Shown: positions 5,261 to 53,109 of the stretch, one piece after another
How positions within the stretch are numbered: the first letter of the stretch is position 1
Layout of the letters: each line of letters starts with the position of its first letter
Assembly: GCA_026988525.1 (NCBI GenBank)
Contig: JALSLC010000007.1
Coordinates: 1-64,000 of the forward strand
Reading direction: 5' to 3'
Source of the DNA: Archaeoglobaceae archaeon
GTDB taxonomy: Archaea; Halobacteriota; Archaeoglobi; Archaeoglobales; Archaeoglobaceae
Length of the DNA: 64,000 nucleotides
Translations under genes and position numbers: made by a program
The notes under the pieces: model-generated
Told to the model about the DNA's origin: nothing
What the model saw: the letters and a program-made list of their open reading frames with translations, nothing else
Databases searched by the model: none

Positions 5261-5321
5261 TTTAAATAACATCTTTTGACAAAATTGAAATTGAGGTAGA
5301 TTAAATCGTAAGTCTGGGGTG
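5261..5321 (+). promoter_or_regulatory. Promoter and ribosome binding site of the tetrahaem cytochrome gene
   Basis: A TATA-like element TTTAAATA at 5261-5268 lies about 60 bases before the ATG at 5328, so a short 5' leader of roughly 30-40 bases is expected. A GGGGTG site at 5316-5321 is spaced six bases from the start. The combination of a promoter, a leader and a good ribosome site fits a well-expressed gene. The transcription start is inferred, not seen. Confidence 0.45.
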
Positions 5322-5327
5322 TGAATT

Positions 5328-6140
5328 ATGAATGGTAGTAAATTAGTTCTACTTGCAATAGCCTTAGTTGCAGTGGGAACTGTTGTAATGCCCCAAACAG
5401 CCTCGCTTTTCGCCGGGCAGCACTGGTGGTACAACATAAGTGGTACAGGAAACCAAGTCCCATGCCAGAAATGCCATGCAGACGTCTTTGAAGAATTAGC
5501 CCTTAGCAACTTCCACACTCACTGGGGTCCAAATGGATGGAATGCATCTGCTCCCGGTACCGCTGATCAATATGACTGTGCCGCATGCCACAGAAGCAAC
5601 TTAAGCATTCAGTATGCTCTCGTAAACGGTAGTGTTACTAACTATCAGCTCGGTAAGCAGGCTCACGCTGCAAGCGTTGTTGCATGTATGCTTTGCCATC
5701 AGGCTAATGCAAGCAGTGCTACGTCGGCTCCCGGTTACTATGCTGGTGGATTTAACATAACTTCATTCGTTAAAGCTGGAATAATACCCAAATCACCTTA
5801 TAACTACTCTAACGCAACGTATAATGGTTTGTGTGCAGCACACAACGCTTTCGTAGCAATGGCGATAAAGAACAACACGTTCCCTGACTCAACTGAGGCT
5901 TGTGTTGCTTGCCACACTCACGTTGCTGTTAAGATAGTCTGGAAACACAAGAGAAGTCTTGAATTTACAGTAAACATAACTAACCCAGTAACTCTAAGCA
6001 ACGGTGTGCACAACTGGAGCGTAAGTGATTGGAAAGTTAATGGAACTGCAACTGCTATAAGCTGGGGTAATACTAGTGGAGTAGGTAATACGAGCTACTG
6101 GAGCGGATGGCCAGGTAACGTAAGTAACATATATTCTTAA
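5328..6140 (+). CDS. Secreted tetrahaem c-type cytochrome, candidate extracellular cytochrome filament (ECN) subunit
   Basis: A 270-residue protein with an N-terminal signal sequence (about residues 1-25: basic start, hydrophobic core, MPQTASLFAG cleavage region). It has four haem c motifs CxxCH at C46-H50, C84-H88, C120-H124 and C192-H196. Further histidines (H32, H63, H65, H113, H172, H198, H207, H228) could supply distal ligands for bis-histidine haems. About fifteen N-x-S/T glycosylation sequons are spread along the chain, pointing to a heavily glycosylated surface protein. There is no membrane anchor. Tetrahaem, glycosylated, filament-forming cytochromes are known from Archaeoglobus veneficus and Pyrobaculum; this gene has the same size, haem count and secretion signal, so a nanowire subunit is a reasonable inference. 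It is monocistronic and followed by a T-rich terminator. GC and codon choice look richer than in most neighbours, consistent with high expression. A soluble periplasmic-type electron carrier is the alternative. Confidence 0.85.
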   Translation: MNGSKLVLLAIALVAVGTVVMPQTASLFAGQHWWYNISGTGNQVPCQKCHADVFEELALSNFHTHWGPNGWNASAPGTADQYDCAACHRSNLSIQYALVNGSVTNYQLGKQAHAASVVACMLCHQANASSATSAPGYYAGGFNITSFVKAGIIPKSPYNYSNATYNGLCAAHNAFVAMAIKNNTFPDSTEACVACHTHVAVKIVWKHKRSLEFTVNITNPVTLSNGVHNWSVSDWKVNGTATAISWGNTSGVGNTSYWSGWPGNVSNIYS

Positions 6141-6157
6141 TCTTTTTAATTTTTTTG
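6141..6157 (+). terminator. T-rich terminator after the cytochrome gene
   Basis: Directly after the cytochrome stop codon come T5 and T7 tracts separated by AA. Archaeal RNA polymerase terminates at such oligo-T runs without needing a hairpin. This supports the cytochrome being a single-gene transcript separate from the CobT-like gene that starts at 6195. Confidence 0.5.
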
Positions 6158-6194
6158 CCGGAATACTTATCTTCTAAGAGTTATTGCATCTATT

Positions 6195-7232
6195 ATGCAT
6201 GTGTTGGGTAGTAAAGAGCACATTAGGGACATTACAAACTTAATGAAAAAAAACGTTCTATTTATTTTCACAGTTGGAAATACATTAACTGCCGAGATAC
6301 CGGGAATAACAGTTGCAGGTGCAAATTTGGATCTTATAAAATATACACCTCCTGCCGATGTTGAGCTTTTGTACTATGGTAGATGTAAAATTATCCCCTT
6401 TCCTCCTGCAACTCCAGATGGAAAGCCAACACCCGCTTTAATAACATACACATCTCTGAGATTAACAGATGTACCATTCTTAGTTGTGGACTCAGGATTA
6501 GTTGTTAAACCTGAAATCCCCCTAATCGATGTTAGAGCTCCAGTTGGAAGAAACATTGAAAAAGAAGAAGCTATGGAATTAGAATCAGCAAAAAAATGTT
6601 TTGAATTTGCAAAAATCTTAGGAGAGAAAATATCTAAGTCTGTAGATGCACTGATAATTGGTGAGAGTATCCCTGCCGGAACTACAACAGCTGGAGCAGT
6701 TTTAAAGGCTCTTGGGATTAAGAGCAAAGTTTCTTCCAGCATGCCGGAAAATCCTGTAGAACTCAAGAAAAAAGTAATAGAAAAAGCAGTCTCAAGACTT
6801 AATGGGGATGAAAGCGTTCTTGAAATTGTTAGCTCTGTTGGAGATCCTGTAATATTAGTGGCTTCAGCAATTGCTTGTGGGAGTAAAAAGCCAGTTATAT
6901 TTGCTGGAGGAACTCAGATGGCTGCTGTAGCTCATGTAGCTGTTAGAATGGGTTTTAAAAATGGATATATAGTTACGACTAAGTACGTTGCAGAAGACAG
7001 TAGTTCAGATATCTATGCTATTTCACCTATACCAGTCGTTTCAGTTGATCCAATGCTTGGAAAATCTAAGAAAAAAGGTTTGAGAGCTTATGAAGAAGGA
7101 TTTGTAAAAGAAGGTGTTGGGGCTGGAGGTGCAACTCTTTTAGCTTATTCAAGGGGCATAGCACCTGAAAGATTCTTGTTTGAAATAGAAAAAGATTATG
7201 AAAGAATTATTGAAAGGTGTGAAAATGTTTGA
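6195..7232 (+). CDS. CobT-like nicotinate mononucleotide-dependent phosphoribosyltransferase (UPF0284 family)
   Basis: A 345-residue archaeal relative of CobT, the enzyme that activates the lower-ligand base of cobamides with nicotinate mononucleotide. Visible family segments are FLVVDSGLVVKP, the glycine-rich VGRNIEKEEA turn, ESIPAGTTTAGAVLKALG, PVIFAGGTQMAAVAHVAV and GVGAGGATLLAYSRG. The archaeal group differs enough from bacterial CobT to be kept as a separate family. The 3' end overlaps hisA by eight bases, so the two are probably co-transcribed although their pathways differ. No other cobamide gene is present nearby. The activity is inferred from the family. Confidence 0.8.
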   Translation: MHVLGSKEHIRDITNLMKKNVLFIFTVGNTLTAEIPGITVAGANLDLIKYTPPADVELLYYGRCKIIPFPPATPDGKPTPALITYTSLRLTDVPFLVVDSGLVVKPEIPLIDVRAPVGRNIEKEEAMELESAKKCFEFAKILGEKISKSVDALIIGESIPAGTTTAGAVLKALGIKSKVSSSMPENPVELKKKVIEKAVSRLNGDESVLEIVSSVGDPVILVASAIACGSKKPVIFAGGTQMAAVAHVAVRMGFKNGYIVTTKYVAEDSSSDIYAISPIPVVSVDPMLGKSKKKGLRAYEEGFVKEGVGAGGATLLAYSRGIAPERFLFEIEKDYERIIERCENV

Positions 7233-21664: not shown

Positions 21665-22600
21665 ATGCCAATTTCGGCATTGATGGCATTATCTTATGCT
21701 GCATTCGCTATTTTCGTTATCGTAGTAGCATCTAAGTGGGTTAAGTGGTCTTCAATGCCCATGCATCTTAGATGGGAGCTGTATCCAGTACCACACGAAG
21801 CTGGAAGAAATCAATATGGAGGCAGCTATATTGAAGAGGTAGATTACTGGAAAAAACCAAGGGAGACAACTCTCGCAGGAGAGCTAAAAGATATGTTCTC
21901 AGAAATGCTATTCATAAAAAGAGTTTATGAATACAAGAGACCACTGTGGTGGTTAACGTATCCTTTCCATGCAGGAATATACTTGATATTGGCTTGGTTT
22001 TTCCTATTGTTCGTTCATGGAATTCTAAGTGTATATATTAGCATACCAGTACTGGCAAAAGTAGTCTATTATTTAATACAGATCTGTGGGACAATAGGCA
22101 TTATTGCGGCAACTTTGGGTTGTATTGGACTTATTATCAGGAGATTTAGTGATAAAGACATGCTCAACTATACTGCTGGGGTAGAGATATTCAATCTGTT
22201 TTTTATACTAATAGTACTTTTAACTGGTATTGCTACATGGATAACTTACGATCCTAACTTTCAGCATGCTATGGAGTTTATGAAAGCTTTAGTTGCCTTT
22301 AACTCAGCATATCTACCCAAACTTACCACAATTGCTGAAGTACACGTAATTCTACTTTGCCTTTTGTGGATATATATACCGTTTACAAAGATGTCTCACT
22401 TTATTGGAAAGTACTTTACTTTCCACAAAGTTCTATGGGATGATGAATTGAACGTTCCGGGTAGTAAGGTGGAAGCTAAGGTTAGGGAACTAACCAGATT
22501 ACCAATGCCTTGGAGTGCTCCGCATGTTGATACTGGTAAAAGTTGGGATGAAAACGCTCTTGAAAATCCTAAGGATGAGTGGGGGAGGTGGAAATATTGA
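21665..22600 (+). CDS. hmeC: DsrM/HmeC-type cytochrome b subunit of a menaquinol oxidoreductase
   Basis: A 311-residue membrane protein of the NarI/DsrM/HmeC group. One N-terminal span (about 3-24) is followed by a soluble loop and then four or five spans from about residue 100 to 250. Histidines on these spans (YPFHAGIYLI, FLLFVHGILS, EVHVILL, KMSHFIGKYFTFHK) can bind two b haems. These subunits exchange electrons between menaquinone and the iron-sulfur partner encoded next. In Archaeoglobus the Hme complex and in sulfate reducers DsrMK link the quinone pool to heterodisulfide- or DsrC-type thiols. The stop codon overlaps the TTG start of the next gene. Confidence 0.82.
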   Translation: MPISALMALSYAAFAIFVIVVASKWVKWSSMPMHLRWELYPVPHEAGRNQYGGSYIEEVDYWKKPRETTLAGELKDMFSEMLFIKRVYEYKRPLWWLTYPFHAGIYLILAWFFLLFVHGILSVYISIPVLAKVVYYLIQICGTIGIIAATLGCIGLIIRRFSDKDMLNYTAGVEIFNLFFILIVLLTGIATWITYDPNFQHAMEFMKALVAFNSAYLPKLTTIAEVHVILLCLLWIYIPFTKMSHFIGKYFTFHKVLWDDELNVPGSKVEAKVRELTRLPMPWSAPHVDTGKSWDENALENPKDEWGRWKY

Positions 22601-24207
22601 GTAGAGAGATAAAGCCTGAGGATGCAGCTTCACCTGTAGATCAGCTTGTTAAACTTACAGTTAGAGATTTGGAAAAGTTACCACCACCTTATGATAAACC
22701 GGGAATGGAACCAGAACTAACAGATCCTAAGCCAGAGTGGAAAGAAAAATATGCAACTGATTTGGATGGATATATTGCTATAGACTTGCCTTGGAAACCT
22801 AAAAACAAGGAAGAAGAAGAAAGATTGATTAAAAGCTTTTTAAATGGGCTGAACAAACTTTTAACTAAGGAAGGAAATTGGACGTTTTTACAACCATTGC
22901 TTTTATCTCTTGAATATTGTGCTAAGTGTCAGACTTGCAGTAATGCTTGTCCAATTTACATCATGAGTGGTAAGCAAGAAGTTTACAAACCAACATGGAG
23001 AGCAGAAATTTTGAGAAGAATATGGAAGAAATATTGTACACCAGCTGGTAAAATATTTGGAAAATTCGTTTCTGGAGATATTGAACTGAATGCTAAAACT
23101 TTGATGAGGTTGGCAGAATCAGCATATAGATGTACACTTTGTAGGAGGTGTACTCAGACTTGTCCCATTGGTGTTGACAACGGATTAATTAGTCATGAGA
23201 TTAGAAAGCTTTTCAGTCAGGAAATGGGAATCGCTCCAAAAGCATTACATGAATTGGGTACAGTACAACATCTTAAAGTTGGTTCAAGCACAGGTCTAAC
23301 ACCTGATGGTGTAAAAGATATAATAGAATTTATAGAGGATGACATAGAAGATAAAATAGGTAAAAGAATAAAAATACCTGTTGATGAAAAAGGAGCAGAT
23401 ATCTTGCTTATACACAATGCTGGTGAATTCTTAAGCTGGCCAGAAAATCCAGCTGCATTTGCAATTCTGTTTGAAGAGGCTGGAATCAGTTGGACTTTAA
23501 GTAGTGAGCAAGTTGCATACGATGCTGTTAACTATGGTGTATGGTACGATGATCTACAACTTGCAAGAATAGCTGCTAAACATGCTGAAATAGCTAATAA
23601 GCTTGAAGTCAACAAGATAGTTGTTGGAGAATGTGGACACGCACATAAAGCAATAACAGTCATAGCTGATAGAGTTCTTCACGACGATATATGGATTCCA
23701 AGAGAAAGCTGTATGCCTATTCTTTGGGAAATAGTCAAAAAAGAAAAAATAAACTTCGATCCTGAAAAGAATAACTTTCCAGTAACTCTGCACGATCCTT
23801 GTAATATGGTTAGACTTATGGGTGTTGTTGAACCGCAGAGAAAGATATTGAGAAAGTTAGCTCCACAATTTAGAGAAATGGAACCACATGGTGTATATAA
23901 TTACTGCTGTGGTGGAGGAAGTGGATTTGCAATAATGCAGTCTATGAACTTCCCAGAGTGGAGAAATGCTGTAGCAACAAGAATGAAATTTAAGCAAGTG
24001 CTTGAGGCATTTAAAGATTGCTTAGATCCGAGTATAAACAAATACATTTGTGCTCCGTGCTCTAACTGTAAAGGTGCTATTAGAGATATGCTATCTTACT
24101 ATCAAGCATCGGAAAGACTTAGCATATACTATGGAGGATTAGTAGAATTAATGGTAAATGCAATGGTTGACTTAGAAGAACCCTTTGTGGAATGGGAGTT
24201 CCACTAA
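22597..24207 (+). CDS. hmeD: DsrK/HmeD-type iron-sulfur subunit with HdrD-like catalytic centre
   Basis: About 536 residues with two classical ferredoxin-type clusters, CAKCQTCSNACPI and CTLCRRCTQTCPIG. These are followed by an HdrD-like C-terminal part with the CCG motif: HDPCNM, then NYCCGGGSGF, then ICAPCSNCKGA. That motif binds the non-cubane [4Fe-4S] centre used for disulfide chemistry in HdrB/HdrD/DsrK. The start is the TTG at 22597, which overlaps the hmeC stop (ATTGA) and is preceded by GGGGGAGGTG. Together with hmeC it makes a two-gene membrane complex; hmeA, B and E-like genes are not adjacent. The thiol or disulfide partner is not encoded in the window. Confidence 0.83.
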   Translation: MSREIKPEDAASPVDQLVKLTVRDLEKLPPPYDKPGMEPELTDPKPEWKEKYATDLDGYIAIDLPWKPKNKEEEERLIKSFLNGLNKLLTKEGNWTFLQPLLLSLEYCAKCQTCSNACPIYIMSGKQEVYKPTWRAEILRRIWKKYCTPAGKIFGKFVSGDIELNAKTLMRLAESAYRCTLCRRCTQTCPIGVDNGLISHEIRKLFSQEMGIAPKALHELGTVQHLKVGSSTGLTPDGVKDIIEFIEDDIEDKIGKRIKIPVDEKGADILLIHNAGEFLSWPENPAAFAILFEEAGISWTLSSEQVAYDAVNYGVWYDDLQLARIAAKHAEIANKLEVNKIVVGECGHAHKAITVIADRVLHDDIWIPRESCMPILWEIVKKEKINFDPEKNNFPVTLHDPCNMVRLMGVVEPQRKILRKLAPQFREMEPHGVYNYCCGGGSGFAIMQSMNFPEWRNAVATRMKFKQVLEAFKDCLDPSINKYICAPCSNCKGAIRDMLSYYQASERLSIYYGGLVELMVNAMVDLEEPFVEWEFH

Positions 24208-50841: not shown

Positions 50842-53109
50842 ATGACTTCAGTAAAGTCTGTAGTAATTGCAGCAACAATTCTAATTTTGGCAATGCATAC
50901 AGCTTTTGGTTTAAAATTTGCAGTGATAGCGGATCCACACGTATGCGTGTTCAAAACGCAGAACACGGCCAAACTATATTCGAACAGCTACGAAAGGTTC
51001 GAAAAAGTCTTAAAGGATGTTGACGGGAAAGTTAATTTTGTGCTGGTTCTGGGCGATTTGACAAGGAATTCTGAGCCAGAAAACCATCTTGCAGCTTTGA
51101 GAGCTCTCGAATCATTGCATATTCCTTGGTACGTTATTCCCGGAAATCACGATGTAGATAAGGAATGGCTGAAAGGCAAGCCCCACTGGACTTTAAAGGA
51201 TTTCATAAACCACTACGAGCCTTGGCTCTTCAGAGGTAAGAGCTACTACGCAGTAAGGGTTTCGAAGAACGTTCTGCTTATATGCTTGAACACGAACGAT
51301 CCAGAAAAGATGCTGTACGACACTTGGGGAGGACATATATCGGAGAAGCAGTTGAGATGGCTCGAAAACGTGCTTAAGCATGCAAAGGAGAAGTGGATAA
51401 TAATCGCGGAGCATCACGCATTGCTGTTCCACCCCACTCCCTGGGATAAGGGAGGAATGAACCCCAACTTCAGGGTTTCTAACTACAAAGAGGTGCTCAG
51501 CATCTTGGAAAAATACGCTAACAAGCACCATATCGTAGTCTTCTGCGGGCACTTGCACACTACAGACATAGCATACTACCACGGAATATACGAGGTGGCT
51601 TGTCCATCCCTATGCACGTATCCTCTCGCCTACAGGATAGTGGAGATAAAGGGAGACGAGATGAAAATAAGGTTCGTCTGGTATCCGAATGAAACTCAGC
51701 AGAAGATGGCGATGGAGACAGCCCTAAAGCACGGATGGACTGAGAAGAGTTTGGAAGTCGCCAAGGGTATGCCTTGGGACAGAAACGTAACTCTCTCGTT
51801 CGACCACGGAATAAAGAACGTTATACTCATGATAGGAGATGGAATGGGCTTAGCTCAGTTGCATCTTACCGAACTGACATACGGAAACCTGACGATGGAG
51901 CACTTCAACTGGACTTCAACCGGCTATGAGTTAACGGATTCTCTTAGCGGGGAAGTGACGGATTCGGCTGCTGCTGGAACCGCTTTAGCTACAGGCTTTA
52001 AGACTTACAACGAGATGGATTCGATGGTTTGGAAGGACGGAAAGCTATATTCTCTGCCCACGGTTTTGGAGTTGGCTGAGAAGCTGGGCAAATCGACCGG
52101 CTTAGTTACTACGACGAGGATTACCGACGCAACTCCAGCAGTATTTGCAGCCCACGTGAAGTATAGGCACATGGAAAAGGACATAGCCCTGCAGGAAATA
52201 GAGCATAAGGTGAACGTTCTTTTGGGAGGTGGATTGAAAGAGTTCAACAGTTCAACTCTAACTCTCGCAAAGAAGGAAGGATACGTAATAGTTTACAACA
52301 GAACGCAGTTGGAGAAGGCTAACGGCGATCACATCTTGGGTCTGTTTGCGGAAGACAACATTCCCTTCGTCCTTGATAGAGGTAAGGATATACCCAACCT
52401 TCCAGAAATGACCGAAAAGGCTCTTGAAGTTCTGAGTAGGAATCCCAAGGGGTTCTTCATAATGGTCGAGGGTGGAAGGATAGATCACGCATGCCACATA
52501 AACGACCCAGCTTCGGTAGTAGCGGAAACGTTGGAATTCGATAAGGCTGTTGCAACTGCTTTGGACTTCGCGAGGCTCGGGCATACTGTAGTAATCGTTA
52601 CCGCCGATCACGAAACCGGAGGACTTACGCTGGGAGTCAAATACGGCAGATCGATAGACTTCAACAAGCTGAAGCACATAAAGAGGAGCGTTTACTACAT
52701 GGCCGAGCTAATAAAGAAGGGAGAGAATCCGGCTGAGGTTGTTAAGAAGTATGCGAACATAACTCTAACGCCGGAAGAGGTTAAGGAGATAGAGAGCGTT
52801 ATCGGGCAGAAGTATCAGCCGGCAGATAAGTTGGGAGAGATAATATGCAAGCATCTCGGCTTGAAATTTGCAACCCACGTTCACAGCGGTGTTCCAGTAC
52901 CAAGGATGATCTACGGTTACGAATTCGACGGATTCCACCACCATGTCGAAACTGCGAAGCTAATGGCGAAGCTACTTCTGGGCAAGCTAACGCCGAAAGC
53001 TAAGGAGGTCTTGGAATACGTGGGTAACTTCAGCTACGTTAAGCCCTCCTTAGACTTAAATCACAACGGCGTTATAGATTTCTTGGACGTTCTCTTAGCT
53101 AACCACTAA
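50842..53109 (+). CDS. Secreted two-domain phosphatase: calcineurin-like phosphoesterase fused to PhoA-type alkaline phosphatase, with C-terminal calcium-loop motif
   Basis: A 755-residue protein with a signal peptide (about 1-23). Domain 1 (about 24-285) has every metallophosphoesterase motif: D31-x-H33, G71-D72, GNHD at 101-104, H191-H192 and GHLH at 236-239. Domain 2 (about 320-715) is an alkaline phosphatase: IGDGMG with D333, the phosphoserine site DSAAAG (S375), EGGRIDHACH, and TADHETGG. The last 20 residues, DLNHNGVIDFLDVL, look like a half dockerin or EF-hand calcium loop. Two unlike phosphatases in one chain suggest sequential cleavage of diesters then monoesters outside the cell. 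The gene is visibly richer in GC and in C- or G-ending codons than its flanks, except for its signal-peptide region, so transfer from another lineage is likely. Confidence 0.9.
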   Translation: MTSVKSVVIAATILILAMHTAFGLKFAVIADPHVCVFKTQNTAKLYSNSYERFEKVLKDVDGKVNFVLVLGDLTRNSEPENHLAALRALESLHIPWYVIPGNHDVDKEWLKGKPHWTLKDFINHYEPWLFRGKSYYAVRVSKNVLLICLNTNDPEKMLYDTWGGHISEKQLRWLENVLKHAKEKWIIIAEHHALLFHPTPWDKGGMNPNFRVSNYKEVLSILEKYANKHHIVVFCGHLHTTDIAYYHGIYEVACPSLCTYPLAYRIVEIKGDEMKIRFVWYPNETQQKMAMETALKHGWTEKSLEVAKGMPWDRNVTLSFDHGIKNVILMIGDGMGLAQLHLTELTYGNLTMEHFNWTSTGYELTDSLSGEVTDSAAAGTALATGFKTYNEMDSMVWKDGKLYSLPTVLELAEKLGKSTGLVTTTRITDATPAVFAAHVKYRHMEKDIALQEIEHKVNVLLGGGLKEFNSSTLTLAKKEGYVIVYNRTQLEKANGDHILGLFAEDNIPFVLDRGKDIPNLPEMTEKALEVLSRNPKGFFIMVEGGRIDHACHINDPASVVAETLEFDKAVATALDFARLGHTVVIVTADHETGGLTLGVKYGRSIDFNKLKHIKRSVYYMAELIKKGENPAEVVKKYANITLTPEEVKEIESVIGQKYQPADKLGEIICKHLGLKFATHVHSGVPVPRMIYGYEFDGFHHHVETAKLMAKLLLGKLTPKAKEVLEYVGNFSYVKPSLDLNHNGVIDFLDVLLANH

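Follow-up and report, generated by a model that had tools for sequence, protein, structure and literature searches.

A tetrahaem c-type cytochrome gene from an Archaeoglobaceae archaeon is supported, by homology and by structure prediction, as a member of the known AvECN nanowire family, and recurrent gene conversion is shown to keep its haem-4/C-terminal segment alike between the tetrahaem genes and a pentahaem paralogue. The N-terminal segment around His32 and haem 1 is sometimes homogenised likewise, on a smaller scale, and exact genome-specific tracts show that conversion occurred separately in several lineages. The gene lies in a 64,000-nucleotide stretch (hereafter the window) of a 1.43 Mb genome of 39 contigs (G000), which belongs to the same family as Archaeoglobus veneficus and whose named relatives are Archaeoglobaceae MAGs. 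Taken as a whole, this reading, in which an AvECN-family wire subunit has ends converted with those of a pentahaem paralogue and, less surely, shares a partner or interface with it, is very probably correct. The family and fold of the protein are already known; what merits the attention of specialists is the conversion pattern.

The protein contains exactly four CxxCH motifs (at residues 46, 84, 120, and 192) and 12 histidines, four within these motifs and exactly eight elsewhere (32, 63, 65, 113, 172, 198, 207, and 228). Hydropathy reveals one hydrophobic stretch, at the N-terminus, and by this measure the protein is predicted to be secreted without a membrane anchor. A first-pass annotation of this DNA had proposed just such a protein, with a signal peptide and no other anchor, four CxxCH motifs, at least eight spare histidines for distal ligation, and about fifteen N-x-S/T sequons in 270 residues. 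These counts were borne out (16 sequons, 15 of them in the mature part), except that only four of the eight spare histidines (32, 63, 113, and 172) are conserved as ligand candidates. The number of mature sequons compares with a mean of 4.1 (SD 1.8) in shuffled sequences and was matched by none of 10,000 shuffles, which rules out a chance origin; the excess is present in all 18 orthologues tested, and sequons 36, 143, 238, and 248 are common to the window protein and AvECN.

Within the window the gene is monocistronic, the surrounding gene order is kept in sister genomes (L042 and L044), and candidate flanking signals are visible by eye (Table 1), while a consensus scan for bacterial signals around this archaeal gene found none. 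The earlier description of a gene standing alone, as for a structural protein, is accurate for this locus, with a putative promoter and terminator, but is untypical of nanowire subunits, because other cytochrome genes follow the orthologue in related genera. In a sister genus, a tetrahaem protein with a hydrophobic N-terminus is encoded directly after the nanowire gene; none is found beside the window gene.

Table 1 Features of the window gene and related loci (window positions unless a locus is named).
Feature	Position	Strand	Basis or remark
ECN-type tetrahaem c-type cytochrome, 270 aa	5328..6140	+	Intact ORF
TATA-like box TTTAAATA	5261..5268	+	By eye
Shine-Dalgarno-like GGGGTG	5316..5321	+	By eye
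Signal peptide, residues 1 to ~25 (predicted)	5328..5402	+	Hydropathy; 220 of 262 residues of 8E5G modelled
Second homogenised segment, residues about 19–56 (His32, haem 1)	5383..5495	+	90.3% to C30 paralogue
His32 in SLFAGQHWWYN motif, distal haem-ligand candidate	5421..5423	+	101/101 relatives
Haem-binding motif 1, CQKCH (46–50)	5463..5477	+	Motif count
His63, distal ligand candidate	5514..5516	+	100/101 relatives
Haem-binding motif 2, CAACH (84–88)	5577..5591	+	Motif count
His113, distal ligand candidate	5664..5666	+	101/101 relatives
Haem-binding motif 3, CMLCH (120–124)	5685..5699	+	Motif count
His172, distal ligand candidate	5841..5843	+	101/101 relatives
Conversion tract shared with C30 pentahaem paralogue of G000	5894..6075	+	99.5% over 182 bp (BLAST); 178 bp exact, 5894–6071
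Haem-binding motif 4, CVACH (192–196)	5901..5915	+	Motif count
C-terminal beta-hairpin domain, residues 202–247 (predicted)	5931..6068	+	AlphaFold2 model, overall pLDDT 80
T-rich terminator-like tracts after stop	6143..6156	+	By eye
Tetrahaem protein of a sister genus, 306–312 aa	L043:6958-7878, L047:6959-7897, L048:6896-7831, L049:6910-7836, L052:6950-7879		

A phmmer search of the PDB returned a single significant match, 8E5G (E = 2.1e-58, residues 1–263). The 8E5G chain sequence is identical to a protein encoded in a closed genome of the same family (G020), which must therefore be A. veneficus or be indistinguishable from it at the nanowire gene. In an alignment of 101 relatives, in which a few CxCH variants were set to the same cysteine columns, residues H32, C46, C49, H50, C84, C87, H88, H113, C120, C123, H124, H172, C192, C195, and H196 are invariant, and the conserved histidines and cysteines are the set that four bis-His haems would need. 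His207, to which a narrower alignment had pointed as a fourth distal ligand, was rejected, since just 50 of the 101 relatives retain it, as against 100 that retain His63. According to a review (PMC12203936), the distal histidine of three of the four AvECN haems comes from another subunit, which fits the four conserved distal histidines of the window protein.

Structure prediction points the same way. An AlphaFold2 model of the haem-free monomer built with the 101-sequence alignment reached a mean pLDDT of 80.4 and a pTM of 0.70 (a model from 18 close orthologues, with a pLDDT of 42, was set aside), and a Foldseek search of the PDB with it recovered 8e5g (E = 2.4e-13, probability 1.00, TM 0.60/0.72) and nothing else of significance, the next match having E = 1.3. 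Of the results that the first-pass annotation had named as counting against it, among them a fold unrelated to the filament cytochromes, none was encountered; the predicted monomer instead matches the AvECN fold alone. With full-length homology to 8E5G and all ligand positions kept, its interpretation as a nanowire subunit gains support. A homologue is present in 22 of 55 genomes of the family, and relatives were found in ANME-1, Syntrophoarchaeum, and Methanoperedens.

In the majority of genomes that have the tetrahaem gene there is also a pentahaem paralogue, in which the same ligands are joined by an extra histidine and CxxCH inserted after haem 3 and before haem 4. The two genes adjoin each other in A. 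veneficus (G020) and in a second closed genome (G027); in G000 the pentahaem paralogue lies on another contig (C30), at least ~20 kb from the window gene. A further G000 contig (C25) encodes an ECN paralogue (L033:9502-10191, minus strand) that has three CxxCH motifs and, in place of the haem-2 motif, the contracted form CxCH, which several ANME-1 homologues show at the same site; a 2019 paper by Ferousi et al., cited in PMC7096707, names a functional contracted haem motif in its title. The end of this gene is overlapped by one for a nine-CxxCH protein with an ECN-like N-terminus and module (L033:8189-9505, minus strand), a candidate for the base or tip of a wire, and A. veneficus and further genomes have these two genes together as well. 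On contig C6, G000 encodes two five-CxxCH cytochromes with lipoprotein-like N-termini (L035:5066-5695 and 5700-6311, minus strand), and a similar pair is found near the A. veneficus nine-haem locus (L040:11584-12730).

Comparison of the G000 tetrahaem and pentahaem genes reveals a mosaic. Over residues 189–250, which encompass haem 4 and the beta-hairpin, their DNA is 97–99% identical, as opposed to about 48% over residues 61–188. Of the homogenised ends, the N-terminal one carries His32 and haem 1 and the C-terminal one haem 4 and the beta-hairpin; the divergent middle carries haems 2–3 and the extra haem. In the N-terminal segment, the window gene is also 87.7% identical to the C25 paralogue over positions 5368–5497, a stretch of 116 bp is 99.1% identical between the C30 and C25 paralogues, and exact runs of 84–86 bp occur in two other genomes (G023 and G040). 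At residues identical between the G000 tetrahaem and pentahaem proteins, the C-terminal segment uses the same codon at 55 of 55 sites and the middle segment at 14 of 44 (p = 6e-15). This contrast was examined in 14 genomes, including the closed G020 and G027, one ANME-1, and one Syntrophoarchaeum; it reaches p < 1e-4 in 7 and p < 0.05 in 10, counts that are not independent trials because the genomes are related. The mosaic is seen in both closed genomes, the ANME-1 genome, and the Syntrophoarchaeum genome, while, among the 14, G039 and G019 lack it and in G041 and G038 it falls short of significance. An assembly artefact is unlikely to underlie the identical tracts, because G020 and G027, each a single contig, carry them; in G027 the exact tract spans 252 bp and reaches the stop codon.

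In principle, purifying selection or a common codon usage, and not gene conversion, might have produced the matching ends, as the N-terminal motif and the haem-4 region are conserved at the protein level. Such an account is hardly credible here. The complete codon agreement within G000 compares with 38 of 53 sites, showing no excess, when the C-terminal segment is compared with its orthologue in a sister genome, and selection on protein or codon usage sits poorly with exact runs of 178 bp in G000 and 252 bp in G027. The segment trees also conflict: in the tree of the middle segment, tetrahaem and pentahaem sequences are kept apart with 2 changes, and a single pentahaem clade is not rejected (p = 0.23), whereas the C-terminal segment mixes the paralogues with 11 changes and rejects one clade (p-AU = 0.0002). 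Because parts of one gene differ in history, a tree of the whole protein cannot tell which nanowire genes are orthologous. We found no earlier report of conversion between nanowire genes in the literature searched, a search that did not extend to the original AvECN paper.

By analogy with AvECN, from which both filament formation and electron transport are extrapolated, the secreted tetrahaem cytochrome would polymerise extracellularly into an insulated haem chain that would pass electrons from respiration to a partner or acceptor outside the cell, its haems probably being bis-His ligated with most of the distal histidines supplied by a neighbouring subunit. Multihaem electron shuttles are common, and G000 encodes further paralogues (the C30 pentahaem protein and the C25 protein with three CxxCH motifs plus CxCH), so the window protein might instead be a monomeric or small-oligomer shuttle of the pseudoperiplasm that kept the nanowire fold and lost polymerisation, leaving the wire to a paralogue. 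We consider this improbable: it is the window copy, not the paralogues, that comes nearest to AvECN in the number of its haems and the pattern of its ligands, it keeps the His32 motif and the C-terminal domain, and 8E5G is its only relative in the PDB. Still less probable is a wire built mainly from the pentahaem paralogue, to which the window protein would contribute a cap, an adaptor, or a minor subunit. That paralogue keeps equal ligands, adds a fifth haem site, and shares the converted ends, but the filament solved from A. veneficus is made of the tetrahaem protein despite the adjoining pentahaem gene. The wire-subunit reading is thus preferred, while the place of the window protein as the main filament builder among the several G000 paralogues is unproven.

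If neighbouring subunits are joined through donated histidines as in AvECN, the homogenised ends are likely to be polymerisation interfaces, and their match suggests that the two paralogues could contact one another or a partner that both share. We are less sure of this step, in which tetrahaem and pentahaem subunits would engage an identical partner or interface, perhaps within a single filament. A mixed filament in which both kinds of subunit are joined through matched ends, with the pentahaem subunit acting for example as a branch, tap, or end piece, is a doubtful but conceivable extension, which the conversion raises without proving. Conversion can also persist wherever the ends are similar enough to recombine, with no need for a shared interface, and both explanations may hold.

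A search for c-type cytochrome maturation genes, which the first-pass annotation had proposed, recovered CcmF-type, CcmC-type, and CcmE genes in G000; with the one STT3/AglB-type oligosaccharyltransferase gene, these make c-type maturation possible and protein N-glycosylation probable. The ccmC gene (L117:1345-1998, minus strand, contig C6) lies inside a dsr cluster, where dsr genes and a ferredoxin gene immediately precede it. An apparent in-frame TGA in ccmC came from a match that overran the gene end, and the 217-aa ccmC is intact. G000 also encodes dsrA, with a second dsr-like gene adjoining, and an operon that ends in DsrJ and whose remaining genes resemble DsrO, P, M, and K (DsrMKJOP). 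The organism probably reduces sulfite or sulfate, and with DsrA and DsrMKJOP genes present, extracellular electron transfer is not its sole possible respiration.

A menaquinone-linked membrane complex in the window had been cited as support for extracellular electron transfer. A NarI-like and DsrK-like pair is indeed present (21665-24207), distinct from the dsrMK of the DsrMKJOP operon on another contig; it is apparently a second Hdr/Dsr-type membrane complex and is plausible as a quinone- or heterodisulfide-linked one. It lies 15 kb from the cytochrome gene with no operonic link, however, and is at best weak, non-specific evidence for the function of the cytochrome. Elsewhere the window encodes a secreted protein of 755 aa (50842-53109) in which a calcineurin-like phosphoesterase is fused to an alkaline phosphatase and which has a dockerin-like end, DLNHNGVIDFLDVLLA, recognised by eye.

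These results extend a nanowire family of proven structure to a small-genome Archaeoglobaceae lineage with sulfite-reduction genes. The new part is the recurrent conversion in Archaeoglobaceae, ANME-1, and Syntrophoarchaeum, which to our knowledge is unreported. It provides testable grounds to seek mixed subunits in archaeal cytochrome filaments, a question that extends to the filaments of methane- and alkane-oxidising consortia.

PcECN (PDB 8E5F), OmcE, OmcS, and OmcZ are likewise cytochrome polymers with stacked haems, and the tetrahaem ones are alike in haem arrangement. None of the four matched the window protein by sequence in the PDB (phmmer) or by fold (Foldseek), and they represent families separate from it. 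Related proteins include the small multihaem cytochromes noted in ANME and Syntrophoarchaeum (PMC9012536), with which the relatives found here agree, and MmcX, whose tree joins 3–5-haem proteins of the Ca. Serpentinarchaeum (Methanocellales), ANME, and Syntrophoarchaeum lineages with Archaeoglobales (PMC11176372, PMC9012536). A comparison of MmcX with AvECN has been published, together with experiments in Shewanella in which MmcX is reported to have supported the uptake of electrons rather than their export, and a membrane-binding site has been reported for it (PMC11176372). At about 27–51% identity, MmcX and the small ANME and Syntrophoarchaeum cytochromes are farther from the window protein than AvECN is. 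The pentahaem PHC family (ExtKL, Gsu2801, cable-bacteria sPHC, and c552) is reported to resemble AvECN in how its haems are arranged and in having a C-terminal beta hairpin; of its five haems, haem II is the one AvECN lacks (PMC11976967). The window protein has four haem sites, not five, and falls outside the PHC family; the extra haem of the Archaeoglobaceae pentahaem paralogue, unlike haem II of PHC, lies between AvECN haems 3 and 4.

AvECN itself (F2KMU8, AEA46122; PDB 8E5G) has been seen as a filament in A. veneficus, whereas the window member is known from sequence and model alone. The two differ in mature sequons (15 in the window protein, 9 in AvECN), in the loop joining haems 1 and 2, which is longer in the window protein, and in gene context, the window gene being solitary and the A. 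veneficus gene adjoining a pentahaem gene. They are homologous over their full length at about 45% identity and share four CxxCH motifs, equal positions of proximal and distal histidines, a signal peptide, the predicted fold, and a C-terminal beta-hairpin.
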